From Chloroflexota bacterium (GTDB lineage Bacteria > Chloroflexota > Dehalococcoidia > Dehalococcoidales > RBG-16-60-22): a stretch of 35,671 nt of DNA. The DNA is taken from contig JACPQH010000103.1 of the NCBI GenBank assembly GCA_016190585.1, forward strand, positions 1 to 35,671. Direction: 5' to 3'. The number at the start of each line of letters is the position of its first letter. Positions within the stretch are counted from its first letter, which is position 1. Made by a program: the position numbers and the translations under genes. The notes under the pieces were generated by a model, which was given only the letters and a program-made list of their open reading frames with translations, was not told the DNA's origin and searched no databases. Below, in pieces: positions 2,915-16,134 of this stretch.

Positions 2915-5698
2915 ATGTGGGTACAGGACAAAAGGGCGGGGTCTGATTTTTTGAACTCCCAATCAGCCGGGTACACGGTTCACGTAATATCGCACACGCA
3001 CTGGGACCGGGAGTGGTACCTGCCATTCCCCGGCTTCCAGGACAAGCTCGTCGAGGCGGTTGACCGGCTCCTGGCAATACTGGCCCGGAACCCATCCTAT
3101 ATCTTTCACCTGGACGGCCAGGTGGTGCTTCTGGAAGACTACCTGGCCAGGAAACCCGGCAACCGCGGCCTCCTGACCCGGTATATCGAGCAGGGCAACA
3201 TCGTCATCGGCCCGTGGTACGTCATGCCGGACGAGTTCCTGGTCAGCCCCGAGTCTCTCTACCGTAATCTCAGGCTGGGTATAAGCCTCGGCTCCCGTTT
3301 CGGGCCGGTGATGAAGATCGGCTACCTTCCGGACACCTTCGGCCATATCAGCCAGCTGGCCCAGCTACTGCGCCGGTACGGCATCAGCCGGGCGGTGGTC
3401 CGGCGCGGCATGACCGGCGCGCCGGAGAAGATCCGCAGCGAGTTCATCCTCGAAGCCCCGGACGGCTCCCGGGTGCTCTCATATTTCCTCGTCCACGGCT
3501 ATACCAACGCCAGGGCGCTCGGGATACCCAACAGGGCGCTGTCCTGGCTGTGCCGCCGGCTGCTATCGCTGCTGACCGGGCCGGCGTTTTCCGGGGACCG
3601 GACGAACGGCCTGAGGGACCACGTTTACCATTACCTCTCGTATCCGGCGACCTACTGGATTCTCCATTCCTTGGCGGCCCTGGAGGACTGCGCCAACCGG
3701 GAGGGGCTTGCCAGGAGGGAAACCGCCTCGCTGGCGCATTTCACGGCCGGCCGCGACCTGCTTTTTTTCAACGGGGGCGATCACCAGCCGCCGCGGGATA
3801 TCGCCGGAGACATCGAGGAGATAAACAGGCGCGGGGGAGACCGGTTACTCAAGCAGGACACCCTCGAAGGCTATTTCCGGTCGGTCGCGACAGACGATGC
3901 CGACCTGCCGGTCGTCCGCGGCGAGCTGAGGAGCAGTCACTATTCGCCCCTGTTATCGGGCACGCTATCGGCGAGGGTCTTCCTCAAGCAGACCAACCAC
4001 CGCATCGAGACGCTGGCGGAAAAATGGAGCTACCCCTGGGCCGCCATCGCGAGCCTGGTAACCGGGAAAAGCTACCCGCGCGAGAAACTTGAGGCTGCCA
4101 GCCGCCTTTATATCCAGAACCACGCCCACGATTCCATCTGCGGGTCAAGTATCAGCCAGGTGACGCGGGACATGACGCGCCGGTTTGACCGGGCGGAAGG
4201 CATGCTGCTGGAGGTGATGGAAGACAGCCTTAACACACTGACGGGCGGCCGGGCCGACGCGGCGCGCGTCCTGGACAAGGAACCCGCCCTGGCCGTCTTC
4301 AATCCAAGCCCGCACCCGCGCAGCGAGGTGGTGACCTTCCGCGCCGAGAACGCCGCCGGGCTGGTGGTGTGCGACGACCGGGGCGAACCGGCCCAATGCC
4401 AGACCGCCGGCCCCCAGGTGGAGTTCCTGGCGGAGTCCGTGCCGGCCCTAGGCTATAAGCTCTTTTATCCCCTCCCCAACGCGGGACCCGCGCTTCAGAC
4501 CCGGCAAGCCGCCTACCGCGGCGACGCCCTCGAGAACGAGCACCTTGTTCTCCGGGTGTTGGAGAACGGGACTTTCATGGTTACGCACAAAGCCAGCGGG
4601 CGCACCTATGGACCCCTGGGCTATTTCGAGGACGGGGGCGATGCCGGCGATACCTACAATTACGCCCCGCCGCGGGAGGACAGCGTCATTACCACCCTTG
4701 AGTCGAGGCCGCGTATCTCGCTGACCGGCACCGGCGCGCTGACGGCCGGCCTGAGAATCGAATACCGGCTGGACCTGCCAGAATCCCTCGGCATACGGGC
4801 CCGCTCAAGGCGCCGGAAGACGGCGCCAAACAGCATTGTCACGACGCTGACTCTGAAAAAGGCCTCCCCCCTGGTGCACATCCATACCGAGGTCAACAAC
4901 CGCTCCCGGGACCACCGACTGCGGGTCATATTCCCTACCGGTCTCAAGGCGGACAGGTGCTGCGCCGACGGACACTGGGATGTAATCACGCGGAGCGTTT
5001 GGCCCGAGCCTGAACTAGACAGGCAAGCTATCAAATCGGGCTGGTTCGACCCGGCGGCGGGCCAGGAAAGTGCGAGCCTGACACAGCCGCAGCGGCGGTT
5101 CGTGGACGTTAGCGACGGTTCCGGCGGGCTCGCGGTGATCAACCGCGGTCTCCCCGAATACGAGGTGAGACAGGACGGGGGCGCTACCATCGCGCTTACC
5201 CTGCTGCGCGGCGTCGGCTGGCTCTCACGGAGCGCCGTCGGCACGCGCCGGGGCTTCGCCGGCCCCGTGCGCAAGGCCGAGGACGCCCAGTGCCCGGGCA
5301 AATACAGCTTCGACTACGCCCTGATGCCCCATACCGGGGACTGGGAGCAGTCGGGAGCTTATATCGAGGCCGAGAATTTCAACGCGCCGTGCCGGGTGAG
5401 GTCCGTTCCCGCACCCGCTAGCCCGGCGCCGCCCGAGCGCGGCTTCCTCGAAGTAGCGCCGCGCTGCCTGATGCTGTCGGGCATGGAGCTTTCCGAGGCC
5501 GGCGAGCTTCTCGTAAGGGTCTACAACATCGGCGGGCGAGCGGTGCGAGGCAGTATCACGCCGAGTTTCACTCTTGAGAAAGCGGATATGGTGGATTTCA
5601 ACGAGAACCCGGTTAAAGAGGCTGCCGTGAAAGCCGGCAGCCTGGCTGTTGAGGCGCGAAGCCGGGAAGTAGTCATGCTCCGCCTGAAGCCGGGCTAG
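2915..5698 (+). CDS. Alpha-mannosidase, glycoside hydrolase family 38
   Basis: Zinc-dependent retaining exo-alpha-mannosidase of about 927 residues; no signal peptide is seen, so probably cytoplasmic glycan breakdown. The zinc motif HTHWDREW is at residues 27-34. The catalytic nucleophile is probably D140 in YLPDTFGH, with WYVMPDEFLVSPESL before it and the conserved NHAHDSICG near residue 407. The rest is the beta-rich C-terminal part of GH38. The ATG at 2915 has no ribosome site and sits on a -10-like TAGAAT, so TTG at 2951, preceded by a GGGCGGGG stretch, is a real alternative. It stands alone with no sugar transporter or other glycosidase beside it. Its last bases overlap the tail of the convergent DUF4342 gene. 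Confidence 0.93.
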   Translation: MWVQDKRAGSDFLNSQSAGYTVHVISHTHWDREWYLPFPGFQDKLVEAVDRLLAILARNPSYIFHLDGQVVLLEDYLARKPGNRGLLTRYIEQGNIVIGPWYVMPDEFLVSPESLYRNLRLGISLGSRFGPVMKIGYLPDTFGHISQLAQLLRRYGISRAVVRRGMTGAPEKIRSEFILEAPDGSRVLSYFLVHGYTNARALGIPNRALSWLCRRLLSLLTGPAFSGDRTNGLRDHVYHYLSYPATYWILHSLAALEDCANREGLARRETASLAHFTAGRDLLFFNGGDHQPPRDIAGDIEEINRRGGDRLLKQDTLEGYFRSVATDDADLPVVRGELRSSHYSPLLSGTLSARVFLKQTNHRIETLAEKWSYPWAAIASLVTGKSYPREKLEAASRLYIQNHAHDSICGSSISQVTRDMTRRFDRAEGMLLEVMEDSLNTLTGGRADAARVLDKEPALAVFNPSPHPRSEVVTFRAENAAGLVVCDDRGEPAQCQTAGPQVEFLAESVPALGYKLFYPLPNAGPALQTRQAAYRGDALENEHLVLRVLENGTFMVTHKASGRTYGPLGYFEDGGDAGDTYNYAPPREDSVITTLESRPRISLTGTGALTAGLRIEYRLDLPESLGIRARSRRRKTAPNSIVTTLTLKKASPLVHIHTEVNNRSRDHRLRVIFPTGLKADRCCADGHWDVITRSVWPEPELDRQAIKSGWFDPAAGQESASLTQPQRRFVDVSDGSGGLAVINRGLPEYEVRQDGGATIALTLLRGVGWLSRSAVGTRRGFAGPVRKAEDAQCPGKYSFDYALMPHTGDWEQSGAYIEAENFNAPCRVRSVPAPASPAPPERGFLEVAPRCLMLSGMELSEAGELLVRVYNIGGRAVRGSITPSFTLEKADMVDFNENPVKEAAVKAGSLAVEARSREVVMLRLKPG

Positions 5699-5946
5699 GA
5701 TTCCTCGGTCTTTTCGACCTCGACGGTGCACTCGGAGATCATGGTGGCGAAGGCGTTTATCGCTGCCATGACGGGGGCTTCCAGGGCGGTCGCCGGGGCG
5801 GCGGGGTCACCCACCGCGACCGGTATATCGAGCAGGTGCTTTTCCTCGCTGAGGAGGCAGATTCTCCTGGCATCCCCGCGGCTGGCAAGCTGTTTGACCG
5901 TTTCCACCAGACGTTTCCCGGGCACCTTTAGACGCTCTATAGCCAT
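5695..5946 (-). CDS. DUF4342 domain protein
   Basis: An 83-residue protein resembling the DUF4342 family: an N-terminal KVPGKRLVETVKQLASRGDARRI segment, EEKHLLDIPVAVG in the middle, and a hydrophobic stretch before the closing CTVEVEK. The family has no established function. The gene starts 57 bases downstream of the last gas vesicle operon gene on the same strand with no terminator seen, so read-through is possible. Nothing in its sequence ties it to gas vesicles. Its stop overlaps the tail of the alpha-mannosidase gene by 4 bases. Confidence 0.8.
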   Translation of the reverse strand: MAIERLKVPGKRLVETVKQLASRGDARRICLLSEEKHLLDIPVAVGDPAAPATALEAPVMAAINAFATMISECTVEVEKTEES

Positions 5947-6003
5947 GTCTCAGATTAACACAGCCGCCATTCAAAGACAATAAGCGGCGTAAAGAAGGCG
6001 GGT

Positions 6004-6693
6004 TCAGCCGGCAACCTGGACCGGGGCGGTAAGATACTCCGCAAGCTCCCGGAAAAGCCCCGGCTGCCGGCCGGGCTGCACCAGGAGATTGAGATAGCCT
6101 CTGACCATAGCAAGCTTTTTGACCTCTCTGACCGAAATCCCCGGCGGCAAACGGGATATAACGTCATGGTACGCCCCGATAAAAAGAACGCCGCGTCCAC
6201 CATGGCTTAGCTCGCCGGCGACTCTTCCGGCAATATAGGCGTCCCTTTCCCGTGTCAGCCGGACGAGGGCCCGCCGGTACCTGAGGGCGGCGGCCTCTCT
6301 CTCGCCGGGGGTCCGGGAATCACTAATATTGCGGAGGTAGTCCATTTCCTGCCTGACCGGCGCCGCCGCTTCGGTCGCCGCGATGACCGCGCCCCGCGCG
6401 ACGAGACCCTGGATTACGAGGAAGTTCGGGCTGCCCGCCGCGGCGCCTTCCCTGACAACGCGCTGGCCGGCATCGCCGCCGGCCACCAGACCGTCCTGGA
6501 AAACCACTAGCCCGGAGGCGTTTACCGAATCAAAGAACCGGGCGATTGATTGCCACAACCCGGCCACGGTCGCCCGGTGCCGCGCCCAGGTCTCCCCTCC
6601 GAGCAGCGTGACCGCCTTCCCCTCAAGACCCCGGGCCAGGGACCCCATATCCGGAGCGGCGTGAATTACCGGGACATACAGCAGGTCGCCCAC
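6004..6693 (-). CDS. Unassigned last gene of gas vesicle operon
   Basis: A 229-residue soluble protein that I cannot assign. An N-terminal region (DLLYVPVIHAAPDMGSLARGL) is followed by an alternating alpha/beta pattern. The C-terminal half has RERDAYIAGRVAGELSHGG and then VLFIGAYHDVISRLP. That arrangement loosely recalls the TraB/GumN and ChaN folds, where a conserved helix precedes a GAxH strand. This is only a resemblance, and catalytic function is not claimed. Its GTG start shares one base with the TAG stop of gvpO, so it is translationally coupled and belongs to the operon. It may act in vesicle assembly or be a passenger gene. Confidence 0.75.
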   Translation of the reverse strand: MGDLLYVPVIHAAPDMGSLARGLEGKAVTLLGGETWARHRATVAGLWQSIARFFDSVNASGLVVFQDGLVAGGDAGQRVVREGAAAGSPNFLVIQGLVARGAVIAATEAAAPVRQEMDYLRNISDSRTPGEREAAALRYRRALVRLTRERDAYIAGRVAGELSHGGRGVLFIGAYHDVISRLPPGISVREVKKLAMVRGYLNLLVQPGRQPGLFRELAEYLTAPVQVAG

Positions 6694-6950
6694 TAGGCGC
6701 TTTCCCCGGTGTCCCCCCGCTTGCGCAGCTTTTTACGCGCGAAATTGGTGATGTTACCCTCGCTGTCCAGGCGCACTTCGTACACGCCGAGGACGTCCAT
6801 GCAGTCCGGGATCGCCCGGCGCTCGAGCACCTCGAGACAGAGTATCCATTCGCCGTCCGACCGGCCGAAGCTGGTGATACCGTCAACCGGCGAGTTTGAC
6901 AGCAGGGTGAAATCGGCTTTGGCCCTCTCTATGATATCGTTCAGGTGCAT
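6693..6950 (-). CDS. gvpO: Gas vesicle protein GvpO
   Basis: An 85-residue protein with the GvpO signature: W35 followed by LCLEVLERRAIPDCMDVLGVYEVRLDSEG, which is the family pattern W-x-EVxE-xxRIPDxxDVLxxYEVxxDxxG, and a basic RKKLRKRG tail. GvpO is an accessory protein needed for vesicle formation in haloarchaea; its exact role is unclear. The ATG start lies inside the 3' end of the preceding gvpJ-like gene (10-base overlap), and its stop shares a base with the next start. Confidence 0.88.
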   Translation of the reverse strand: MHLNDIIERAKADFTLLSNSPVDGITSFGRSDGEWILCLEVLERRAIPDCMDVLGVYEVRLDSEGNITNFARKKLRKRGDTGESA

Positions 6951-7189
6951 ACCGCGTTCTCCTTCCTGGCCTCGGACCCGGTGTCAGCGCGCTGGGCCTC
7001 GGCCCAGTCGCTCCAGAGCCCGTACCTCAGCATCGTCTCAACGCCGGCCAGGGCGGCCCTGAGCTTGATGCCGAGCAACGGCACGCCGGATAAACCGATG
7101 ATGATATCGGCGTCCAGCACCAGCCCCTTGTCCAGCACGCGGTCCAGCAGGTCCACCAGCGTCGCCTGGGTATCACGCGACGGGATCAT
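6941..7189 (-). CDS. gvpJ: GvpA/GvpJ-family gas vesicle protein (second J-type)
   Basis: 82 residues from ATG 7189. That start is chosen because it has GGAGT 6 bases upstream and forms an ATGA overlap with the TGA stop of gvpL; the frame stays open to about 7246, but this extension is within gvpL. The core LVDLLDRVLDKGLVLDADIIIGLSGVPLLGIKLRAALAGVETMLRYG, interrupted here only for description, is the shared GvpA-fold helix-strand-strand-helix. The LDAD and SGVPLLG variants place it with the minor J/M/S members rather than the shell protein. Such minor proteins are thought to form nucleation complexes. The short acidic/basic tail is not conserved. Confidence 0.88.
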   Translation of the reverse strand: MIPSRDTQATLVDLLDRVLDKGLVLDADIIIGLSGVPLLGIKLRAALAGVETMLRYGLWSDWAEAQRADTGSEARKENAVCT

Positions 7190-8037
7190 GCCTGACTCCG
7201 TTCCAGCGCCGGCGAGGTCCGGCCGACGAAGGTATAAGGCGGCCACGGCCCGGAAAAATGCACGGAGAAGCCCTCCAGCCGGTTTATCATGTCCAGCTCC
7301 TCGCCCAGCTCGTTGACTGATTCGCGCGCCACGAGACAGGAAAGGTTCAGCAGCATCACTTTATCCTTGCCCATCTTCTTTATCTTGTCGAAAACGACCT
7401 CAACACAGAGCGGCCGTACCCTCCGGTACATATCCTGGAACCAACCGTCGGCCAGGCACCCCATCTCGGCGCGGAGCATCGTCTCCAGCCGCCGCCGGTA
7501 AAGGTAAGCCAGTCCGGGCGACATCACCTCTATCTGCGAGCGCACCGATTTAAGGTCTTCCTGCGCCATAAGCCTGACCCCGATGACGGCGGGGTCGTAA
7601 AATATCTGGAGGCCGTATTCGTCTTTGCCCCTCATGCGCTCCAGAAGGGCTTTAAGACGCGGGTAGTCTGCGCTCAGCCAGTCCGCCACGGCCGCGCCGG
7701 CCGGACCGCCGTCAGCGCCCCGGATGATGGTGTCAAAACCGAACGGTATCACCGTGTCGAACAGGGCACGCGCCTCGTCAAGGACTCCCTGGTGACTTTT
7801 CACCCACTCCCTCACGAGCTTCATATCCCAGGCGCTGTAGGGCTCCGCCGGGCAGTCGTGCACGACGGCCCCGATATCGGTGAAGGGGATGGTATAAACA
7901 CGGGTGTTGTTTATCCCCGGACCGGGCAGCGCTATCGGGCGGTCCATCGGGACCACGCCGTAGACGTAGCACCCGGCCAGGCCCGCCGTCGCCCTAGGAA
8001 TTCGCCGGTCCGGCGAGTCTATCTCTCTCATTTTCAC
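7186..8037 (-). CDS. gvpL: Gas vesicle protein GvpL/GvpF family
   Basis: 283 residues, GvpL/F family. It begins with the ferredoxin-like first domain after CYVYGVVP and ends with the diagnostic FSGPWPPYTFVG just before the C-terminus; the middle is helical. GvpF/L proteins bind GvpA and take part in early vesicle assembly. The GTG start has GGAAGGAG 6 bases upstream and lies 44 bases inside gvpK; an ATG two codons later has poorer spacing. The other copy in this operon is at 8949-9707, so naming F versus L is by position only. Its stop overlaps the next start as ATGA. Confidence 0.92.
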   Translation of the reverse strand: MKMREIDSPDRRIPRATAGLAGCYVYGVVPMDRPIALPGPGINNTRVYTIPFTDIGAVVHDCPAEPYSAWDMKLVREWVKSHQGVLDEARALFDTVIPFGFDTIIRGADGGPAGAAVADWLSADYPRLKALLERMRGKDEYGLQIFYDPAVIGVRLMAQEDLKSVRSQIEVMSPGLAYLYRRRLETMLRAEMGCLADGWFQDMYRRVRPLCVEVVFDKIKKMGKDKVMLLNLSCLVARESVNELGEELDMINRLEGFSVHFSGPWPPYTFVGRTSPALERSQA

Positions 8038-8344
8038 CGCGGTCTCCTTCCGGGCTCAGCAGTTTGTTGATGACGTCGTCGACCAGGCCGTCCAGCCCCT
8101 CGCGGAAGCTCTCGACGGACTCGCTCAGCCCCTGCTCTGCCTTGACCTGCTCGATGGCGCGGTCCAGTTCCATCAGGGCTCGACCCAGCCTCTCGCTCTC
8201 CTCCGGGCCCAGCCCGCCTTCCATCCTCTTTAGCGCCTGGATGCGCAGCGCATCCCGGATAATTTCCACCAGCGCCAGGACGAGGGTAAGGACGCCTGAT
8301 TTTAGATTATTTTCCTGGATATCAATGAGCACCTTTAGCCTCAC
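7994..8344 (-). CDS. gvpK: Gas vesicle protein GvpK
   Basis: 116 residues with the GvpK pattern: NNLKSGVLTLVLALVEIIRDALRIQALKRMEGG, with conserved leucines and the QALKRME segment, then LGPEESERLGRALMELDRAIEQV. GvpK is an accessory protein required for vesicle formation; its biochemical role is not established. The C-terminal tail (PEGDRGENERDRLAGPANS) is charged and encoded in the 44-base overlap with gvpL. The start may be GTG 8344, or GTG 8332, which has GAGG 6 bases upstream; both lie within the preceding gene. Confidence 0.9.
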   Translation of the reverse strand: MRLKVLIDIQENNLKSGVLTLVLALVEIIRDALRIQALKRMEGGLGPEESERLGRALMELDRAIEQVKAEQGLSESVESFREGLDGLVDDVINKLLSPEGDRGENERDRLAGPANS

Positions 8345-8708
8345 CGAGCGGCAGGTCCCATTCCAGGCGGGCTTTCCGGGCCCGGGCGCTTGCCCAGCCG
8401 CACCACGGGCAGGCTTCTTCCAGAAGCTCGGTAACGGGGACCCGCTTGCCGCACTGGGGACAGTCCTCGCGGCCTCCCGCCGCCTCTTTCCAGGCGGCCG
8501 TTTGCAGGTTAGTACCCCCGGGGAACTCCAACCCGTACCGGGCCGCCGTCTCGAAGGAGGCCAGCGCCGCCCGGACCTTCAACCCCAGAAGCTCCACCCC
8601 GGCCAGCGAAACCAGGATATCCGCGTTGATAACCAGCCCCTTGTCCAGTACCCGGTCAATCATGTCCGCCAGGGTTGCTTTCTCTTCCCTTGTCGCCGGT
8701 AAAGCCAT
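8322..8708 (-). CDS. gvpJ: GvpJ-type protein with C-terminal zinc ribbon
   Basis: 128 residues in two parts. Residues 12-60 are a GvpA-fold core (ADMIDRVLDKGLVINADILV, SLAGVELLGLKVRAALASFE), of the minor J type. Residues 80-106 carry CPQCG and CPWCG, with cysteines 83, 86, 100 and 103. This is a classic paired CPxCG zinc ribbon, followed by a basic helix and WDLPLGEAKGAH. Minor GvpA-like proteins take part in nucleation; the ribbon could bind a partner, metal or nucleic acid. The ATG start shares one base with the TGA of gvpG. The zinc ribbon is read directly from the sequence; metal binding is inferred. Confidence 0.9.
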   Translation of the reverse strand: MALPATREEKATLADMIDRVLDKGLVINADILVSLAGVELLGLKVRAALASFETAARYGLEFPGGTNLQTAAWKEAAGGREDCPQCGKRVPVTELLEEACPWCGWASARARKARLEWDLPLGEAKGAH

Positions 8709-8959
8709 CAGGCTTCCTCCTTTTCCGGTCGGTTGACCAGCCTCAGCCTCGCTATCAGGTAGGTTTCCAGCTCTTCGTAACGCTCCAGCGAGAGCTCGCC
8801 GTCCTGGAGCTCGATTTGAAGCTCCTGGAGCTTGAGTTTGATGGCATCCGGGGTTATCAACCGCTCGCGGTCTATCTCGTCCCGGAGACCAGCCATCACC
8901 TGTTTCCCGATGGCGGCGGGCATGCCGAACAAGAGCTGGTATACCAGGCTAAGCAGCAC
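8708..8959 (-). CDS. gvpG: Gas vesicle protein GvpG
   Basis: An 83-residue, mostly helical protein. The hydrophobic N-terminus (LLSLVYQLLFGMP) and the C-terminal LKLQELQIELQDGELSLERYEELETYLIARL match the GvpG family pattern, in which a short coiled-coil segment ends in E-xxLLxRL. GvpG works with GvpF/L in assembly. The start is GTG, overlapping the 3' end of gvpF by 11 bases. Gene order F-G-J-K is the usual one in bacterial and archaeal clusters. Confidence 0.87.
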   Translation of the reverse strand: MLLSLVYQLLFGMPAAIGKQVMAGLRDEIDRERLITPDAIKLKLQELQIELQDGELSLERYEELETYLIARLRLVNRPEKEEA

Positions 8960-9707
8960 GCCGCCCTGCCAGTCCCAGCTTCACGTTAACGAAGTTATAC
9001 GGCGGCAACGGCCCGATGTACTTGAAGCTGAGCTTGTCGCCGAACTTACCGTCCAGCCGGCGGACCTCCTCCTGAAAGCGCCCTTCTTCCGCGCCTTTTA
9101 TCAGGAACGAGGCGTTGAGCAGGCCTCTGACGCCGCCGTTTTCGCTCCTGACAGCGTCGATAGCGCCGGGCCTAAGGTGCTGGTAAACCTCGTCCGCCAG
9201 GAATATTTTCCACTCCCGCGCCACCTGCTCGACCTTATAGCCTATCCGCATGAGCAGTCCCTGGGCTTCCAGCGGCGAGCGGGTCGTCCTCAGCCTCTCC
9301 TTAAGCTGCACGAACTCGGGGTCTTCTTTTTCCAGGCAGGCGCTGACCGCCTCCTGGTTCCAGGAGACCTTGAGGGCGATCTCGACGCAGTCATGCAGCT
9401 TGTCCAACTGGCCGGCCAGCTCGGTGTAGTGCTCCCTCACCATGCCGAGCACTTCTTCACCGCTTCCGGCGATAAGCCCGAAGCTCGCCGGCAGTACCGC
9501 CGGGTACATCCTGAGGAGCCGGTCCTGGACCAGGGTGTGCGCCAGGACATTGCGGCGGGTAGGATCGATGTCGGCCAGCCCGGTATCGGTAACGGTGGCG
9601 GCCAGCTCGCGATAGCTCACGGTGTAGACCTCGGCGTCCTCGATGCCCGTAAACTCGAATTTTCGGGGCTGCGGCTCCCGGACAAACCCGTAAATGTATT
9701 TACCCAT
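8949..9707 (-). CDS. gvpF: Gas vesicle protein GvpF/GvpL family
   Basis: 252 residues. It starts with MGKYIYGFVRE, the usual opening strand of GvpF/L, includes the MYPAVLPASFGLI segment near residue 68, and ends with the family signature FKYIGPLPPYNFVNV. Two ferredoxin-like domains are joined by helices in known structures of the family. It is called F because it immediately precedes gvpG. Its ATG follows the TAG stop of the AAA ATPase gene with no base between, so the two are translationally coupled. Confidence 0.93.
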   Translation of the reverse strand: MGKYIYGFVREPQPRKFEFTGIEDAEVYTVSYRELAATVTDTGLADIDPTRRNVLAHTLVQDRLLRMYPAVLPASFGLIAGSGEEVLGMVREHYTELAGQLDKLHDCVEIALKVSWNQEAVSACLEKEDPEFVQLKERLRTTRSPLEAQGLLMRIGYKVEQVAREWKIFLADEVYQHLRPGAIDAVRSENGGVRGLLNASFLIKGAEEGRFQEEVRRLDGKFGDKLSFKYIGPLPPYNFVNVKLGLAGRRAA

Positions 9708-11825
9708 CTATCGCCTCTTAAACCATTGTATTGAACTGGTGAAATGCTCCCCGGAAATCTGAAGCTGGTCCGTTCCGGAGGCGACGCACTCCCGGATAGC
9801 CGTGCGGCCGGCTTCCTGGCAGATGGTGGCGATATCCGAGCCGGCCAGGCCTTCGGTGTCACGCGACAGGGCGGCCAGGTCTACGTCAACGAGGGGCCGG
9901 TTCCGGGTATGGACGGTAAATATTTCCCGGCGGGCCGCTTCGTCCGGCAGGGGGAACACGAGGATAAAATCGAACCGGCCCGGTCTCAGGACGGCGCTGT
10001 CGATCAGGTCCTTGCGGTTGGTCGCCGCCAGCACCAGCACGCCTTTGAGCTCCTCGAGGCCGTCAAGCTCGGTCAGGAACTGGCTGATGACCCGCTCCGC
10101 GGACTGCGAGTTATCGCTTAGACCGCGCTCCGGCACCAGGGAATCGAACTCGTCAAAGAAGAGGATGCAGGGGCTGGCGGCGCGCGCCTTGCGGAAGACC
10201 TCCCGGACGCCCCGCTCCGATTCCCCCAGGTACTTCGAGATGATTTCCGGCCCCTTCACCGAGATGAAGTTGACGCCGCTCTCGTTAGCCAGCGCCTTGG
10301 CTACCAGGGTCTTGCCCGTGCCGGGCGGCCCATCCAGCAGGATGCCTTTCGGCGGCCTTACCCCGGACTGCCGGAAGAGGTCCGGGTACATTATCGGCCA
10401 GGCGACGGATTCCTCGAGACGCTGCCGGATATCGCCCAGACCCCCGATGTCCGCCCACCGGACATCGGGTATCTCGACAAAGACCTCGCGAATGGCCGAC
10501 GGCTCGACCTCCTTGAGGGCCTCAGCGAAGTCGTCGCTGCCTACCTCGAGGCCGCGCAGGGTATCGTAAGGGACCTCATCCCGGCGGAAATCGAGGCGCG
10601 GCATCAACCGTCTCAGGGCGTTCATGGCCGCCTCGCGGCACAGCGCTTCCAGGTCGGCGCCGACGAAACCGTGGGTGATGCGGGACACTTTCTCCAGGTC
10701 AACCTCGCCGGCCAGCGGCATTCCCCTGGTATGAATCTGGAGGATGTGCAGCCGCCCCCGCTGGTCCGGGATGCTTATCGCGATCTCGCGGTCGAAGCGG
10801 CCGGGACGGCGCAGCGCCGGGTCAAGGGAGTTAGGGATATTGGTCGCGCCGATGACAATGACCTCGCCCCGCGACTCCAGCCCATCCATCAAGGCGAGCA
10901 GCTGGGCGACGACCCGCCGCTCTACCTGTTTTTCCCCGCCCATCTCTTCCCGCTTGGGGGCGATAGCGTCGATTTCGTCGATAAAGAGGATTGCAGGGGC
11001 TTTTGCCCTGGCGTCCTCGAAGACGCCGCGCAGCCGCCCCTCGCTTTCCCCGTAGAACTTGCCCATTATCTCGGGGCCGGTGATGTGCGTGAAGTAGGCG
11101 GCTGTCTCATGGGCGACCGCCCGGGCAATCAAGGTCTTGCCGCAGCCCGGCGGGCCGTGCAAGAGCACGCCCTTGGGCGGATCGATGCCCAGCCTCTCGA
11201 AGAGCTGCGGGTATTTCAGGGGAAGCTCGATCATCTCCCTGACCTTCTGGAGCTCCCGCGACAGGCCGCCGATATCCTCGTAGGCTATCTTCATGGCGCG
11301 GGGCGGGGCGCCGCCCTCTTTGAGCTCGACGCGCGTGCCGGGCCTGACGGTAACCGGGCCGCGGGGTGACGTGCCCAGGACGGTGAAGTCCTGGCTCCGC
11401 GTGCCGAAGAGGTTGGCGCGGACCCGGTCGCCTTCGACCAGCGGCAGGCCATCAAGCAGCGCGCTGATGTAGCCGGCGTCGTTGCGGCGGCCGGGCGCCC
11501 GGTTGGGCGAGACCGGGGCCAGCACGATCTTGTCGGCCGGCGACGATTCGATGCGGCGCAGCGTCACCCGCTCGTCCAGGGAGACCTGGGCATTCTCCCG
11601 GAGCAGCCCGTCAATCTGGACGAGGCCCCGGCCCCGGTCCTCAGGATAAGCCGGCATCACGCGGGCCGCGGTCTGGCGCTTCCCCGCTATCTGGACGATG
11701 TCGCCTACGGCCGCCCCGAGGGACGCCAATTCGGCCGGGTCGATCCGGGCCAGGCCGCGCCCGACGTCCTTCGGGCGGGACTCGGCGACTTTCAGATTGA
11801 CCGTGCCGGCCTCGGGACTAGCCAC
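9708..11825 (-). CDS. CDC48/VAT-type two-ring AAA ATPase
   Basis: 705 residues with the full CDC48 layout. An N-domain at residues 1-170 comprises a double-psi barrel start ([27 protein letters not shown]) and a second half. D1 has Walker A GPPGCGKT at 224-231, Walker B ILFIDEID at 279-286 and arginine finger [10 protein letters not shown]2 has Walker A GPPGTGKT at 499-506, Walker B ILFFDEFD at 554-561, then LRPGRFD. All catalytic residues look intact. Such ATPases unfold or extract protein complexes. Inside a gas vesicle operon it may remodel or take apart assembly intermediates; that is inference from context. The GTG start overlaps the GvpH-like gene by 8 bases. Confidence 0.95.
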
Positions 11826-12345
11826 CGTTCCCCCGCTCTTTTTCCAGGGTAATCTCCAAAATCCCGTTCCGGTATACTTTCTGCATTACGCCGGGTTTTA
11901 CCCGGGCGGGCAGCAGTATCTCGCGAGCGTACTGCCGGTTCTTGCTGCTGGCCGTGAGGTTCATAATATCGCCCGATACCTCGACCTGGATATCGTCCTC
12001 GGCGGCGCCCGGCAGCTCGGCGATGACCAGCACCCTTTCACCTTCATCGAAGACATCGACCATCGGCTCCCAAACCGTCCTCACCTCGGGCCCCCGCGCG
12101 CCCTCGCTGACATTGCCGAAGGTCTCGATAACGGGCTTGCCGGACAGCGTCCGGATACTGAACCCGTAAACCCCCCGGGCGTCTTTCGGCAGGCCTTTTA
12201 TCGCCCCGCTTTTCTTGATGCCCTCCTGGTCCAGTTTCGATACCAGGTCGATCAGGCTGCCTATCCCCTTGAACATGCCGGAGAAGCTCACCTTGCCGAC
12301 GCCGAAATCAACCTCGATATGCTCTTTGTCTTCCCTGTCAGTCAT
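11818..12345 (-). CDS. gvpH: Hsp20-type gas vesicle protein (GvpH-like)
   Basis: 175 residues. The C-terminal part (about 90-172) is an alpha-crystallin/Hsp20 domain: [31 protein letters not shown], and the closing strand pattern [12 protein letters not shown]. The N-terminal 85 residues contain [14 protein letters not shown], a short helical segment also found in archaeal GvpH. Small heat-shock proteins in these clusters likely keep the very hydrophobic GvpA soluble. It is distinct from the cytosolic Hsp20 at 25511-25975. Start and the gvpN stop overlap as ATGA. Confidence 0.9.
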
Positions 12346-13247
12346 AAAGCCACTTCCTCAGTCATTTCCTGAATCACCCGGAGCGCCCGCTTTTTCTCAC
12401 GGGGTGGTATCTCCGGCATCAGGATGTCAAGGCAAATCTCCCGGTAGCTGCCGGTCAGCCCGTCGCCGGCTTCCCGGGCGAGCCGGAGCAGCTTGCCTAT
12501 CATGATGCATGCCCGGACGGTGGGGACCAGCTTGTTCGCCTTGACCGCCCTTACTTTTCTCACGAGGCCCGTGATGCGCTCGGCGTCTCCCGGGCCAAGC
12601 CGGCACTTCCGGCGCACGATAGCGGTCTCGGTCGCCTCGTCGAAGTTGCCCAGCTCCATGGTTATCATGCGGTCGCGCAGGGCGTCCTGGCTCTTCTGCA
12701 CGCCGGCGTACTCCTCCGGGTTCGAGGTGAAGATGATGGAGAAATCCGGGTGTACCCGGAGGTAATCGCGCCCGCCCCTCGCCGCGGGCAAGGGCAGTAT
12801 CCTCTCTTCCAGGACGGACAGCAAAATGTTGTTGGCCTCGGCCCGGGAGCGGGTGAATTCGTCATAGATGAGGGTCAATCCGTGCTCGCAGGCGGTCGTC
12901 AGGCGGTTGTCGATCCAGCGCTCGGTCATGCTCTCATCGGTCTTTACCACGGAGCGGATAAAGTTATCCGCGATGTGCTGCTTGCGGTAGCCGCAGACGC
13001 CGCCGACCAGGTCCGAGGTGCCGAACTCGAAGTCGCCGCACAGCAGCACCGCCGGCCTGTCCAGCCGTGAAGCGATATGGAAGGCCAGGGTGGTCTTGCC
13101 GACACCGGTGGGGCCGCTGAGATGCAGAGGGAACCCGGCCCGTAAATAACCCAGGGCCCGGCCGGTCAGGAAGCGGACATAGTCTGTCTCCACGAAGGTC
13201 TCACCCTCACGGGGCAGGAGGACGCCCGCTTCCTTCAGCCTCGCCAT
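12342..13247 (-). CDS. gvpN: Gas vesicle ATPase GvpN
   Basis: 301 residues, a MoxR-type AAA+ ATPase of the GvpN family. N-terminal FVETDYVRFLTGRALGYLRAGFPLHL leads into Walker A SGPTGVGKTT (44-53). Walker B is LTLIYDEF (124-131), and sensor 1 is IIFTSNPEEYAGVQ; the RDRMITMELGNFDE segment contains the arginine finger region. GvpN promotes vesicle growth and is widely conserved with gvpA. The ATG shares one base with the stop of the upstream 125-residue gene and has GAGGT 5 bases before it. Confidence 0.96.
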   Translation of the reverse strand: MARLKEAGVLLPREGETFVETDYVRFLTGRALGYLRAGFPLHLSGPTGVGKTTLAFHIASRLDRPAVLLCGDFEFGTSDLVGGVCGYRKQHIADNFIRSVVKTDESMTERWIDNRLTTACEHGLTLIYDEFTRSRAEANNILLSVLEERILPLPAARGGRDYLRVHPDFSIIFTSNPEEYAGVQKSQDALRDRMITMELGNFDEATETAIVRRKCRLGPGDAERITGLVRKVRAVKANKLVPTVRACIMIGKLLRLAREAGDGLTGSYREICLDILMPEIPPREKKRALRVIQEMTEEVAL

Positions 13248-13624
13248 CAGTACCTCAGCTCCGTTGCCCCGAGCCGGTCAAGGCATTCCGGCTGCGGCGC
13301 GGGCTTCCCCGCAGGGGTCCAGTAGGACGCCTGTATCTGTTGTCGCAGCGCGCCCAGCGACCGGTTTCGGTCGATAATCGCCGCCAGCTTAGCCCGCATC
13401 TTGAGCAGCCGGCCGCGGGACTTCATAATGGAAGCTTCATAGTTCCGCATGCGGCGGCTCTCGCGGGCCAGCAAGATACTCAGCCGCGCATCAGGCGGCG
13501 CGACGGTATCGCCCTTTTTTACCGAGAGGGAGTTGGCGGCGGCCGGGCGCCGCCTTTTGGCGATATCCAGGCTGGTCGTCACCTGGCGCATGGTCCGGAT
13601 ATTTCTGAGGGCTTCGCTTTCCAT
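13247..13624 (-). CDS. Unassigned basic helical protein between gvpA and gvpN
   Basis: 125 residues, strongly basic (R/K-rich), with no family I recognise. Residues 45-100 look like one long helix (ARLSILLARESRRMRNYE, then LLKMRAKLAAIIDRNRSLGALRQQ). The tail is proline-rich with one cysteine. The ATG has only AAAGG upstream. It is 10 bases after its upstream neighbour and coupled to gvpN by a one-base overlap, so it is expressed with the operon. In many organisms the place between gvpA and gvpN is held by gvpC, the outer reinforcing protein; whether this is an analogue is unknown. Confidence 0.72.
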   Translation of the reverse strand: MESEALRNIRTMRQVTTSLDIAKRRRPAAANSLSVKKGDTVAPPDARLSILLARESRRMRNYEASIMKSRGRLLKMRAKLAAIIDRNRSLGALRQQIQASYWTPAGKPAPQPECLDRLGATELRY

Positions 13625-13634
13625 ACCGTTGCCT

Positions 13635-14249
13635 TTAAGACGGAAAGTAGAGCTTGTCTTCTTTACGGATCCGCCCGTTCTCCAGGAGGTTCTTTACGGC
13701 GCGGCCGAGCACGACGGGCGCGGTGCCCAGACCCTCGGCGACCGCCGCCAGGCTCACCCCTTCGGGATGGCCGCCGATGGCATCGAGGAGCTGCGACTCG
13801 AAATCCGAGACCTTCGGGGGGCGGGGGCAGGTCTCGCTTTCCTTTTCCCTAAACTCGACCGGCTCCCGGGCGCCGCTTGTCTCCGCCGGGTCCTGCCTGG
13901 CCGCATCAGGGCGGGCTTTCGCCGCAGCGCCCGTTTCGGACGGGTGCCGCGGTTGGCCGGCTTCTTCGGTATCCGTTCCCAGGGCCGCGCGCGACTCTTT
14001 GCGCCGCCGCGCCATGTCCCGGAGGGTATCCCGCGTTTCCTGCCGCAGCCGGCGGACCTCCTCCCGGTTCCGGGAGACGTATCCGGAAAACTGCCCGCCT
14101 GCCGCCCGGTTCCGGCGGGCCTCGCCGAGCTGCGATATCACGGCGGCGGCGGCTGTTCGCGACTGGCTAGCGGTCGCGGCCCGCTTGATTTGCCGGACAA
14201 CCCGGCGCCGCTCGCCCGCTGATTTGACCCTGTCATTCGTCGCTTTCAT
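13635..14249 (-). CDS. Unassigned protein: basic helix plus winged-helix-like tail
   Basis: 204 residues. Residues 1-90 are arginine-rich and helical with repeated R-x-x-R spacing (REEVRRLRQETRDTLRDMAR). Residues 91-145 are a Pro/Ala/Glu-rich linker. Residues 148-202 (DFESQLLDAIGGHPEG, SLAAVAEGLGTAPVVLGRAV, KNLLENGRIRKEDKLYFP) read as a winged helix-turn-helix with the usual K-L-Y-F wing. The same layout could bind DNA or serve as a protein-protein module. A clear AAGGAG lies 4 bases before ATG. It begins 8 bases after the preceding gene and is part of the gas vesicle operon. No function is known. Confidence 0.75.
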   Translation of the reverse strand: MKATNDRVKSAGERRRVVRQIKRAATASQSRTAAAAVISQLGEARRNRAAGGQFSGYVSRNREEVRRLRQETRDTLRDMARRRKESRAALGTDTEEAGQPRHPSETGAAAKARPDAARQDPAETSGAREPVEFREKESETCPRPPKVSDFESQLLDAIGGHPEGVSLAAVAEGLGTAPVVLGRAVKNLLENGRIRKEDKLYFPS

Positions 14250-14257
14250 TTTGCTCC

Positions 14258-14920
14258 TTAAGACGCCTCCCGGCTTTCGGAGAGGACCAGCAGCCGGCGC
14301 GCGTCTTTGTGCCGTGCCCTGCGGGAGGCCGGGGGTTTGTCGCCGGCACTGACGCCGCCGAGCTCTTTGATATGCTCGAACCGGAGAAGCTTACCTTTCT
14401 CCGTGGCCGATTTCATCTTCTGATTCAGGGACTCCTGTTCCCGGCGGCACCGCTGAAGGCTCAGCTGGAATTTATCCAGCCGGGCAAATATTTGCCGGCC
14501 GTCATCCTGAAAGCTGGACTTTATTTTTTCCAGGATAGATTCGATATCGCCGGCGTTCGCCAGGCCGGCGTCCAACCGGGTCAGTTGTTCCTTTAACAGG
14601 ACGGTCAGCCCTTTTTGCTTTCGCAGGTAGCACTTCAATAATTCCCTGACCAGTCTTCGCTCTTCATCAATCTGCCGTTTACTGGCATCCGTATCATTCA
14701 AAATGGCCTCCATGACCCGCTCGAAGTCCCTCTTTCTCAGGGAGCAGTTCCTGGCAAGCGTCTCGCCCAGATGGCTCTTCAGCTTGACCCTCTCCTCCAT
14801 AGCCCGGGACAGGCCTTCATCCGCGATTATCGTCGCCTCGTAAGCCGCGGCCACGACGTTCTCCACAACCACGATGCGCTCCTGGTATGCGCCGATCAGC
14901 TCCAGCAGCCGGTTTTCCAT
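14258..14920 (-). CDS. Unassigned coiled-coil protein directly after gvpA
   Basis: 220 residues from ATG 14920, chosen because GAGGTG stands 4 bases upstream; an open frame continues to 14980 but would run through the stem-loop behind gvpA. The sequence is almost entirely charged helix (KLKSHLGETLARNCSLRKRDF, LLKEQLTRLDAGL, ARLDKFQLSLQRCRREQESL), typical of a coiled coil. It ends in a basic tail with an RRARHKDARRLL stretch. No GvpC-type 33-residue repeat is obvious. Position suggests a vesicle-associated or assembly protein, possibly a GvpC substitute. I do not recognise its family. Confidence 0.78.
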   Translation of the reverse strand: MENRLLELIGAYQERIVVVENVVAAAYEATIIADEGLSRAMEERVKLKSHLGETLARNCSLRKRDFERVMEAILNDTDASKRQIDEERRLVRELLKCYLRKQKGLTVLLKEQLTRLDAGLANAGDIESILEKIKSSFQDDGRQIFARLDKFQLSLQRCRREQESLNQKMKSATEKGKLLRFEHIKELGGVSAGDKPPASRRARHKDARRLLVLSESREAS

Positions 14921-14937
14921 CAAACACCTCATATTCA

Positions 14938-14984
14938 GGGTTTGGCAAGGTACACTCGTTACCCGAGGGTGCCCTGGCAAACCC
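14938..14984 (-). promoter_or_regulatory. Large stem-loop behind gvpA
   Basis: Just 9 bases after the gvpA stop the transcript can fold into a 47-base hairpin. The outer stem is GGGTTTG with CAAACCC (7 bp), then CAGGG with CCTTG (5 bp, one G-U) after a C-C mismatch, then a 2-bp piece, and CTCG with CGAG (4 bp) closing a GGTAA loop. No U-run follows, so it is not a classic intrinsic terminator. A 3' stabiliser or partial terminator that favours gvpA over downstream genes fits best. The following gene's ribosome site starts about 10 bases later. Confidence 0.65.
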
Positions 14985-14993
14985 CGCTGTCCC

Positions 14994-15200
14994 TTACGCA
15001 GCGGGCGCGGTCAGGCCGATAGCTTCGGCGTACTTCAGGTAAGTCTCGACGCCGGCGATTACCACGCGGGCTTCGACCGCCAGGATCTCGAGACCGAGAA
15101 GAGAAACGCGCGCCCAGGCATCGATAACGATCCCATTGTCCAGGATGCGGTCCAGCACCTCGGCCAGACCAGACGGCGCAATTGAAGTCTGTACTGCCAT
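14994..15200 (-). CDS. gvpA: Gas vesicle structural shell protein GvpA
   Basis: 68 residues, essentially canonical Gvp[21 protein letters not shown], then [20 protein letters not shown] and [14 protein letters not shown]. This small hydrophobic protein polymerises into the gas-permeable, water-excluding vesicle wall. It is the only canonical A-type copy in the window; the two others are J-type minor members. A near-perfect Shine-Dalgarno (GGAGGTGA, 15204-15211) precedes ATG, the strongest in the operon, as expected for the most abundant product. A large stem-loop follows the stop codon. Confidence 0.98.
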
Positions 15201-15203
15201 TTG

Positions 15204-15211
15204 TCACCTCC
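15204..15211 (-). promoter_or_regulatory. Consensus ribosome binding site of gvpA
   Basis: Minus-strand GGAGGTGA is an uninterrupted 8-base match to the 16S rRNA 3' end. The GGAGG core is 6 bases from ATG. No other gene in the operon has an equally long match, which points to translational boosting of the shell protein. Confidence 0.85.
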
Positions 15212-15223
15212 TTTTTCCAAAAT

Positions 15224-15436
15224 TCAGGACTCTAAGAGCTCCCGGGAGACGGGGATGGCGTAGCGCTCCAGGAAAGCCCTGAAATCCTCGTTCTTGACCC
15301 GGTAGTGGCCGCCGGGCAGCTTCACCGCCAGGAGCCTGCCGTCCTTTATCCAGCGCCTGACGGTAGTCCGGCTGACCAGGCAATATTCGGCGATGAATTT
15401 CACCGGGACTGATTTGGTTTTGCTTAATTGTCGCAT
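15224..15436 (-). CDS. Excisionase/MerR-like HTH regulator of the gas vesicle operon
   Basis: About 70 residues, one DNA-binding domain of the HTH_17 (excisionase-like) type: VKFIAEYCLVSRTTVRRWIK, then DGRLLAVKLPGGHYRVKNEDF. The pattern S-x-x-TVRRWI followed by a GGHYRV wing is typical. It is the first gene of the operon and only 23 bases before gvpA, so it probably controls its own promoter. Start choice is uncertain: ATG 15436 leaves a leader of roughly 18 bases without a ribosome site, while TTG 15451 would be almost at the transcription start (leaderless). It has no sensor domain. Confidence 0.85.
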   Translation of the reverse strand: MRQLSKTKSVPVKFIAEYCLVSRTTVRRWIKDGRLLAVKLPGGHYRVKNEDFRAFLERYAIPVSRELLES

Positions 15437-15460
15437 TTGCTTTTGTGCCAACTGTCAGCA

Positions 15461-15489
15461 ATTATACTAATCGTTCGTCCTATTGTCAA
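15461..15489 (-). promoter_or_regulatory. Perfect sigma-70 promoter of the gas vesicle operon
   Basis: On the minus strand, -35 TTGACA (15489-15484) and -10 TATAAT (15466-15461) are separated by exactly 17 bases, a full consensus match. The predicted start is near 15454. The surroundings are AT-rich, in contrast to the rest of the window. A second TGACA lies at 15457-15453, 31 bp (about three helical turns) after the one in the -35, a possible pair of operator half-sites for the HTH protein encoded next. Confidence 0.85.
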
Positions 15490-15579
15490 TACCTTATGGC
15501 ATTATTTCTTCCTTATTTATTGTCTTTTGTCGTTTTCAGGCAAAATGATTAAGCCGGGGATATTTCAGGAGGAGTGCCG

Positions 15580-16134
15580 CTAGTCCAGCAGGTGGTCCAG
15601 AAGAATCCTGAGACCGATGCCGATGAGGATGATGCCGCCGGCCAGCTCGGCACGCCGTCCCAGCCAGTCGCCGGCCCGCCGGCCGATTACGAAGCCGGAG
15701 GCGCTGACGACGAAGGCGGTGGCGCCGATTACGCCGCTGGCCAGCCAGATGTTCATGCGGAGGAAGGCGAAGGTCAGCCCGGCGGCCAGCGAGTCGATGC
15801 TGGTGGCCACCGCGAGGGTGAGCAGGACGACGATGCCCAGCCTGGCGACCGGTCTCTCCGCCTTTTCGTGGAAGGCGTTCCACACCATCCGGCCGCCGAT
15901 AAGGCCCAGCAGCCCGAAAGCCACCCAGTGATCGTAGCCGGCGATGATGTCGGTCAGGGCCCGGCCGGCCAGGTACCCGATGGCGGGCATCAGCGCCTGG
16001 GCGAGACCGAATGAGAGCGCCACGGCCAGGGCCTCGCGGAGGCGGCTCTGCCGCGTGATGCTGATTCCCAAGGCCACGGCAAAGCAGTCAGCGGACAACC
16101 CGAGGGCGATAACCAGGATAGAGACGAAGTCCAT
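15580..16134 (-). CDS. mntP: Manganese efflux pump MntP
   Basis: 184 residues, a six-helix integral membrane protein of the MntP (YebN) family exporting Mn(II). Diagnostic are the two internally related motifs: ALGLSADCFAVALGISI near residue 12 and LAVATSIDSLAAGLTF near residue 106, with their conserved aspartates. It starts 2 bases after the stop of the CinA-type gene, so the two are co-transcribed. About 90 bases separate its stop from the gas vesicle promoter, and no clear terminator lies between. No yybP-ykoY-type leader is possible right before it, since the gap is too short. Confidence 0.94.
   Translation of the reverse strand: MDFVSILVIALGLSADCFAVALGISITRQSRLREALAVALSFGLAQALMPAIGYLAGRALTDIIAGYDHWVAFGLLGLIGGRMVWNAFHEKAERPVARLGIVVLLTLAVATSIDSLAAGLTFAFLRMNIWLASGVIGATAFVVSASGFVIGRRAGDWLGRRAELAGGIILIGIGLRILLDHLLD

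Follow-up and report, generated by a model that had tools for sequence, protein, structure and literature searches.

A predicted gas vesicle operon with an archaeal-type Hsp20–Cdc48 gene pair on a Chloroflexota contig

Background

Gas vesicle clusters have been described in Serratia ATCC 39006, Anabaena, Bacillus megaterium and Halobacterium, and the genes gvpA, gvpN, gvpF/L, gvpG, gvpJ and gvpK, together with the gvpO that Halobacterium also has, recur in the locus analyzed here. This locus differs from all four in the addition of a Cdc48-type ATPase gene and of genes for four further proteins, P3, P4 (which carries a winged helix), P5 and P6. Cdc48 is not among the gene names in the passages on these four clusters, nor was it seen in the available parts of the published gene lists for Serratia, Anabaena and Bacillus; since those clusters work without a listed Cdc48, it is therefore not needed for every vesicle. 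The literature, as far as its available sections go, presents GvpN as the gas vesicle assembly ATPase, to which some clusters add an ArsA homologue, and the relevant part of a 2022 review likewise gives GvpN as the AAA ATPase of gas vesicles (PMC9501494). Passages on Serratia report that small bicones remain when gvpN is lost (PMC4982088), and GvpN would therefore act at another step than Cdc48. The cluster of Pelodictyon luteolum, according to the sections available, resembles ours in having gvpN, L/F, G, J, K and hsp20, and in those sections no cdc48 is named (PMC2963123). In Halobacterium, cdc48d (gene 6199) and hsp5 (6201) are described as heat-induced (PMC1971269, in part). In the Chloroflexota, gas vesicles have already been published for Chloroflexales, and MAGs of Anaerolineae have been reported to carry gvp genes (PMC7332563, PMC11650866; available passages).

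Gene content and layout of the operon

The window, that is, the whole stretch of 35,671 nucleotides that was analyzed, contains a minus-strand run of 16 genes from 15451 to 6004, and ORF analysis found all of the frames open. The original prediction of a 16-gene gas vesicle run is thus borne out, and the count holds when it includes the HTH gene at the head of the run, the three ORFs that separate gvpA from gvpN, the Cdc48 ATPase and the last ORF, none of which was in its gene list. Most of the genes overlap or touch, as it had also claimed; the widest gap separates gvpA from the start codon (ATG) of its downstream neighbour by 73 nt. Family profiles recovered the predicted core set of GvpA, N, F, G, J, K, L, a second J and O plus Hsp20, with GvpG scoring below its cut-off, and these matches ruled out a chance run of ORFs as the origin of the operon.

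The run, in which all features lie on the minus strand, opens with a small excisionase/MerR-like HTH protein (15224..15451; HTH_17 45 bits, TIGR01764 47 bits, over cut-off; alternative start ATG at 15436), which is likely the regulator of the operon; a similar gene also lies upstream of gvpA in the related loci L001, L003, L004 and L133. It is followed by gvpA (14994..15200), which encodes a shell protein of 68 aa (Pfam Gas_vesicle 50 bits; NCBIfam GvpA 118 bits against a cut-off of 100). Beyond P3, P4 and P5 come gvpN (12342..13247), encoding a MoxR-type AAA ATPase (TIGR02640, 319 bits against 267), and a gene for an Hsp20-type chaperone (11818..12345), whose product scores 25 bits with Pfam HSP20 (cut-off 20.8) and 131 bits with an archaeal Hsp20 model, just below its cut-off of 140. 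After the Cdc48 gene, the first gvpF/L-type gene (8949..9707; GvpL_GvpF 191 bits) is followed by gvpG (8708..8959), which is assigned by position and length with a sub-cut-off score of 23 bits against 30.6. Next are a gvpJ-type gene with C-terminal zinc-ribbon-like cysteines in a C..C-C..C pattern (8322..8708; Gas_vesicle 59 bits), gvpK (7994..8344; 57 bits), the second gvpF/L-type gene (7186..8037; 189 bits), the second gvpJ-type gene (6941..7246; Gas_vesicle 58 bits; likely start at the ATG at 7189) and gvpO (6693..6950; 67 bits), all of the Pfam scores of gvp genes other than that of gvpG being over cut-off. The assembly genes gvpN, F/L, G, J and K thus stand side by side, GvpG by its sub-cut-off score only. 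The last gene encodes P6 (6004..6693). A DUF4342 gene at 5695-5946 was rejected as a member of the operon, since among 80 GvpN loci it was matched only in the window.

The consensus promoter that had been claimed upstream of the run is present. The sequence TTGACA-17-TATAAT at 15489-15461 (minus strand) matches the sigma-70 consensus at 12/12 positions and is predicted as a promoter by this consensus alone; a scan of 5400-15700 revealed six promoter-like sites against 1.7 (sd 1.4) in shuffled sequences, the other five scoring 9/12. The ribosome site of gvpA is AAAGGAGGTGA.

Host and spread of the cluster

The claim of a complete gas vesicle operon in a Chloroflexota-like genome agreed with the flanking genes and with the neighbours of GlnA, GvpN and Cdc48. 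GlnA showed 68-77% identity to matches in nine of 12 Chloroflexota MAG genomes and 52-53% in two, with no match in the remaining one (G002), and the nearest loci for both GvpN and Cdc48 come from Chloroflexi/Dehalococcoidales MAGs. By these sequence comparisons, the operon is placed near Dehalococcoidia-type Chloroflexota MAGs. Several of the relatives are of groundwater origin according to their record titles.

That the host group would be a surprise did not hold. Gas vesicle genes in Chloroflexota are not new, and the titles of the 80 retained GvpN loci span over 20 phyla or candidate groups. Nor is this exact cluster unique to the window: gene order is identical in L005 from gvpA through to the final gene, and also in L004 and L132, where it is split over two contigs of one genome. 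Viral carriage of the operon was considered and rejected, as none of 10 pattern-matching viral contig stretches encoded a GvpN relative.

Proteins encoded between gvpA and gvpN

P3 (14258..14920), a helical protein adjoining gvpA, and P5 (13247..13624), a small basic protein, had no Pfam match over cut-off; P3 has matches of 30-41% in L001-L005, and P5 has matches of 44-49% in L001, L003, L004 and L005. A large search with P3 returned two proteins, one of which was P3 itself.

P4 (13635..14249) occupies the gvpC position. In its AlphaFold model, a long helix (residues 2-97) is joined by a loose, low-confidence linker to a C-terminal winged helix (147-203); Foldseek found winged-helix matches (best E 1.8e-3), and a PDB sequence search gave an uncharacterized protein (7e-5) and weak matches to apolipoprotein, MarR and others. 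P4 resembles GvpC in that its gene lies between gvpA and gvpN and encodes a long helix, and in that its relatives carry 33- and 40-residue repeats; it differs in ending in a winged helix and, in the window copy, in being without repeats. The available part of a review describes a globular C-terminal part of haloarchaeal GvpC that binds GvpN and GvpO (PMC9501494), and no GvpC with a winged helix was found in the open-access literature that was searched. The window P4 gave no signal of GvpC-type tandem repeats of about 33 residues, whereas 40-residue repeats were detected in P4 of L001, L003, L004 and L005 (scores 100-271), and the repeat score exceeded that of shuffled sequences in 91 of 118 P3/P4-type ORFs. 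DNA tandem repeat analysis of L001 was uninformative. The Pfam repeat model of GvpC is, we presume, PF01304. Pfam GvpC did not match the window P4 at E<=0.1 and, at E<=1, matched none of 16 of the 18 P3/P4-type relatives, the other two being covered by the best 25 matches listed. Helical periodicity was clear for P4 of L001, L003, L004 and L005, just above the shuffle limit in L049, at the wrong angle in L030 and not significant in the window P4; for P3, it exceeded the shuffle limit in the window and fell below it in L001 and L003. Because the iterated profiles catch helical proteins broadly, the P3 and P4 counts that they gave (125 and 117 ORFs) were not taken as homology.

These results bear on the further claim that the core genes are intact and that vesicles are probably made. 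The first part stands, with no broken frame; the second is qualified by a gene in the gvpC position that is without the repeats of its close relatives, and vesicle formation is predicted here from the genes. The missing repeat signal in the window P4, set beside the 40-residue repeats of four relatives, might mean that the operon is decaying or yields only weak vesicles in this lineage, and the use of floating in the groundwater from which several relatives come is uncertain. We nevertheless consider this very unlikely, given that all of the frames are open, that GvpA is 80-89% identical in L001-L005 and that the predicted promoter and ribosome site are strong. In addition, the available passages report that Serratia itself keeps its vesicles on deletion of gvpC, although in E. 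coli such a deletion lowers or abolishes the acoustic signal (PMC10344784).

Cdc48 and its link to gas vesicle genomes

The cdc48 gene (9708..11825, minus strand) lies directly downstream of the Hsp20 gene and encodes a complete N-D1-D2 AAA ATPase, with CDC48_N, CDC48_2 and two AAA domains and a TIGR01243 score of 919 bits against a cut-off of 803. Its best match among solved structures is the VCP-like ATPase 5g4f, an archaeal Cdc48/VAT, with which it aligns from residue 9 to residue 691 (9-691), sharing the N domain, both AAA rings and the aromatic pore loops (KFYGESE and KYLGESE in the window). It differs from the archaeal enzyme in being bacterial and encoded within a gvp operon, and in its tail, as the HbYX motif was found in none of 72 gvp-linked Cdc48 rows. 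By an NCBIfam model and a solved-structure match, respectively, the Hsp20 and Cdc48 of the operon are both of archaeal type; this and the heat induction in Halobacterium fit a chaperone pair.

Close relatives of this Cdc48, defined by a 59% identity line that was chosen after the list was seen, occurred in 19, 11 and 15 genomes of three samples of 245, 192 and 198 genomes, whose members are related and not independent. GvpN was also present in 18/19, 10/11 and 15/15 of these genomes, while overall it occurred in 20, 12 and 16; the GvpN genomes without Cdc48 were G046 (and, for the close form, G017), G414, G431 and G611. At the level of loci, Cdc48 was found in 53 of the 80 GvpN loci, and in 47 of these 53, Hsp20 was the nearest listed same-strand gene upstream of it. 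Among GvpN loci with long flanks, 30/35 contained Cdc48, and L004 carries it on another contig.

In a tree that left out rows shorter than 600 aa as well as L081, L112 and L122, the gvp-linked Cdc48 rows grouped together (3 changes, against 12.3 in shuffles), the gvp label for L081-L122 being judged from about 1.5 kb on each side. In that set, a gvp gene was present in 15 rows; among those lacking one, eight had P6, whether or not Hsp20 was there too, and four had Hsp20 alone. In the third sample, Cdc48 of four genomes (L147-L150) had neither a gvp gene nor Hsp20 within about 1.5 kb. Locus L151, which is probably the Pelodictyon luteolum strain whose cluster was introduced above, contains both Cdc48 and P4 with a winged helix. 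It differs from the window, which has no ArsA gene, in that an ArsA homologue separates its Hsp20 gene from its Cdc48 gene, and this ORF is 314 aa long, against a group mean of 637 aa given in the available part of the cluster description (PMC2963123).

It might be argued that both Cdc48 and Hsp20 serve protein quality in general, and that their genes sit in the operon for co-expression and have no special link to Gvp proteins. Consistent with this, ten of the 29 first-sample genomes with any full Cdc48 match had no GvpN, and the tree places rows that have no gvp gene close to the base of the gvp group. However, Cdc48 occurred outside GvpN genomes in only 1/11 and 0/15 cases in the other two samples. 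Cdc48 tracks gas vesicles closely, and a general role is therefore disfavoured and, in our judgement, improbable. From these comparisons, there appears to be a tie between a Cdc48/p97-type unfoldase and gas vesicles that spans several distant groups of bacteria. We found no such tie to gvp clusters in the open-access literature that was searched; subscription literature lay outside the search, and the tie may be in print there.

The last gene of the operon

P6 belongs to an unnamed family that is weakly TraB/ChaN-like, as judged from weak profile matches in its relatives: the TraB profile PF01963 matched 16 of 46 of them at E<=0.1 (best 3.4e-4). Unlike TraB/PrgY/ChaN-like proteins, the window P6 itself matched no Pfam family, PF01963 included, and Foldseek returned nothing at E<=0.001. 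The P6 family is found mainly in GvpN genomes. Strong matches fell in such genomes in 16/16 cases in the first sample and 8/9 in the second, where the first count takes only the 16 matches below 1e-28 out of 37/245 genomes at E<=1e-10, a cut that was chosen after the gap to 2.5e-16 was seen and that excludes 21 genomes, two of which have GvpN. In 13 of 106 Cdc48 places, the first classified gene to follow Cdc48 was P6, in seven of them within 10 bp, some places having been fetched twice.

This association with GvpN genomes, the adjacency to Cdc48 and the weak TraB matches would suit a machine for disassembly or recycling, in which Cdc48 strips GvpA off collapsed or unwanted vesicles and P6, as a TraB/TIKI-like hydrolase, cuts the extract, allowing sinking or reuse of the shell protein. 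In the window, however, P6 is the last gene, distant from cdc48, and its activity is guessed from weak fold and profile matches. We therefore regard such a machine as unlikely, although less so than a general role for Cdc48 and Hsp20.

Proposed role and implications

The reading that we prefer, with a probability of roughly 0.6, is a functional gas vesicle operon whose architecture is widespread and in which Hsp20 and Cdc48 form a dedicated module that remodels GvpA-family proteins. It starts from the computed gene content, open frames, complete Cdc48 and tie of Cdc48 to GvpN genomes in three groups, while we infer from the families that vesicles form, that GvpA is the substrate, that Hsp20 hands it over and what P3, P4 and P6 do. 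Transcription would begin from the promoter at 15489, and the first gene would supply the operon with its own HTH regulator. GvpA would form the shell, nucleated and fed by GvpF, G, L, K, J and O, with rib growth driven by GvpN; the helical P3 and P4, in the place of gvpC, would probably lie along the shell. Exposed hydrophobic GvpA-family proteins may be bound by Hsp20, and the Cdc48 ring may thread these proteins and return them to assembly, or extract faulty subunits from shells that are growing or have collapsed. In a wider version, which we advance only tentatively, many bacterial phyla would share an archaeal-type Hsp20–Cdc48 gas vesicle module together with a TraB-like hydrolase and a winged-helix shell-binding helix; by extracting and recycling GvpA, the module would make these vesicles actively remodelled organelles, and the Cdc48 of these bacteria would mainly serve a protein organelle.

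If true, a p97-type machine tied to gas vesicles across distant groups of bacteria would alter the GvpN-centred picture of these organelles and give bacterial Cdc48 a clear task. How cells repair or dismantle vesicles could then be tested by deleting genes one at a time in a cultured host, and Hsp20 and Cdc48 would be candidate chaperone genes for gas-vesicle ultrasound reporters.

The gas vesicle operon and its host

The operon is real and its core is ordinary. A single minus-strand run of 16 genes extends from 15451 to 6004, and the gene content, count and coordinates of the original prediction are correct. Matches exceeding the Pfam cut-off were obtained for GvpA, two further GvpA-family genes, Hsp20, two GvpF/L genes, GvpK and GvpO, whereas the GvpG match fell short of its cut-off. 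NCBIfam named GvpA and GvpN above cut-off; gene content, frames and domains are established. A promoter (TTGACA-17-TATAAT, 15489-15461, minus strand) lies upstream of a small HTH gene, which is followed by gvpA with a strong ribosome site. The novelty of the operon is its Cdc48-Hsp20 module, a winged-helix protein at the gvpC position (P4, 13635-14249, minus strand) and the last gene, P6 (6004-6693, minus strand), of an unnamed, weakly TraB/ChaN-like family.

Other features were observed in and around the operon. The bacterial gvpO (6693-6950, 67 Pfam bits) contrasts with a 2022 review in which GvpO is termed haloarchaea-specific (PMC9501494). GvpJ-type proteins with a C-terminal zinc-ribbon-like pattern, C..C-C..C, make up 19 of 155 GvpA-family ORFs (window 8322-8708; L038:7740-8831; L002:15163-15822, with a weak PH-like match too). 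Beside the operon end lie a GH38 alpha-mannosidase gene (2915-5698) and a DUF4342 gene (5695-5946), and ARAGORN reported a possibly false tRNA-Asp with the odd anticodon atc at 23535-23616.

A Chloroflexota-like host had also been proposed, and three proteins were compared to place the window. Glutamine synthetase (32969-34315) was matched in 18 of 24 genomes: among the 12 Chloroflexota MAG genomes searched, nine showed 77, 75, 73, 72, 70, 70, 69, 68 and 68% identity and two 53 and 52%, with no match in G002, while two Atribacterota genomes showed 64 and 62%, one Nitrospirota genome 52%, and others less or none. The acyl-CoA synthetase with an N-terminal acetyltransferase (29994-32705) was matched in 15 of 24 genomes, at full length in G005 (58%), G004 (51%) and G151 (50%) and partially in the rest. 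Among the matches listed, the nearest GvpN loci belong to Chloroflexi and Dehalococcoidales (62-65% identity). Judged from sequence, the host is best placed as a Chloroflexota of Dehalococcoidia kind.

Cdc48 in gas vesicle loci

The full Cdc48 gene (9708-11825, minus strand), identified by domain and curated model matches, shares 8 nt with Hsp20 and lies directly next to gvpF. Its best solved-structure match was the archaeal VCP-like ATPase 5g4f. Among 14 control genomes, CDC48_N rings occurred in four, each of them an archaeon.

From a GvpN scan, 80 of 563 loci encoding a relative were kept; by record title, fallible for MAGs, they include at least 21 Chloroflexota, 11 Thermodesulfobacteriota, 7 Planctomycetota and 6 Pseudomonadota, among others. 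The order from gvpA to P6 is identical in L005, is carried jointly by two contigs of one genome (L004 and L132), and is nearly the same in L002, where other ORFs replace P4 and two additional Hsp20-like ORFs occur. Cdc48 was present in 53 of the 80 loci; Hsp20 was its nearest listed same-strand upstream gene in 47, within 300 bp in 31. The wider gaps are compatible with an intervening ArsA ATPase gene, found in both loci tested (L151:9509-10453, 227 bits; L152:8417-9355, 260 bits) and absent from the window. Where at least 8 kb follow GvpN, 30 of 35 loci carry Cdc48; L004, among the five without it beside GvpN, carries it on another contig, and none was found in G046, the genome of L021.

Of two cultured genera with the cluster, one is Desulfoluna (L041, L057) and the other probably Pelodictyon. 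Pelodictyon luteolum makes gas vesicles, and the genome of L151 (G529) is presumably that of strain DSM 273; its cluster contains gvpA-type genes, P3, a winged-helix P4, gvpN, Hsp20, ArsA, Cdc48, gvpF/L copies, G, O, J and K. A published cluster listing for this strain names arsA and hsp20, and its text lacks the word cdc48 (PMC2963123). Chloroflexales gas vesicles and Anaerolineae MAG gvp genes already feature in published work (PMC7332563, PMC11650866). We met no mention of a link between Cdc48 and gas vesicles in the open-access papers searched, although it may still exist elsewhere in print.

Co-occurrence of Cdc48 and GvpN was established across genomes. In the class of G001 (n=245), GvpN occurred in 20 genomes, Cdc48 at E<=1e-100 in 29 and both in 19; at >=59% identity, 18 of the 19 genomes with Cdc48 had GvpN. 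The corresponding counts were 12, 11 and 10 in the class of G007 (n=192) and 16, 15 and 15 in the phylum of G448 (n=198). Fisher p values (4e-24, 5e-14 and 1e-21, respectively) ignore kinship and overstate the association because related genomes are not independent; a stronger argument is that three distant groups agree. By their listed positions, both genes lay on one contig in 10 of the 18, all 10 and 12 of the 15 genomes that have both. Counting against the association, at four loci of the G448 phylum sample (L147-L150) no gvp gene or Hsp20 was found within ~1.5 kb of Cdc48.

Mapping the gvp label onto an 85-row Cdc48 tree required 3 changes vs. 12.3 in shuffles; the tree's deep branching order is unsure because a quick method was used and long branches meet. 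Rows L099-L102 and L110, all five lacking gvp genes, fell close to the gvp group's unresolved base, and wider stretches around these rows (L123-L126, L128) still contained none. Seven others (L103-L109) fell far from it. The latter represent a second, distant Cdc48-like ATPase lineage in the same genome class, with no gvp gene within ~1.5 kb.

P4 and its relation to GvpC

In AlphaFold models of six P4 sequences, a helix (2-97) is joined through a linker (pLDDT <50) to a winged helix at the C-terminus (pLDDT 86-93); Foldseek returned winged-helix matches (best E 1.8e-3). A profile built from 8 tails matched 41 ORFs, in 38 of the 80 GvpN loci (18 Chloroflexota), L131, L133 and the window; in 4 of the 41, the printed stretch is short and internal. 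Repeats in 91 of 118 P3- and P4-type ORFs (top period 33 in 25, 40 in 15) and the place in the cluster are reminiscent of GvpC; in that protein, the number of repeats is linked to how wide and strong the vesicle is (PMC9501494). No repeats were found in window P3 and P4, and because the window P4 fails both repeats and the Pfam model, it is not classed as GvpC here. The globular end of haloarchaeal GvpC docks on GvpN/GvpO; by analogy, the winged helix may bind either of these proteins, or it may instead bind DNA.

A possible role in vesicle assembly

Halobacterium offers a precedent for the Hsp20-Cdc48 pair, by analogy: cdc48d and hsp5 (genes 6199 and 6201) are jointly up on heat shock (PMC1971269). 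The main rival reading is recycling, in which the weakly TraB/ChaN-like P6 would act as a hydrolase. The best-supported model is that, in assembly or repair, Hsp20 would hold GvpA-family proteins and Cdc48 would thread them. GvpN, because its loss leaves bicones (PMC4982088), would drive rib growth.
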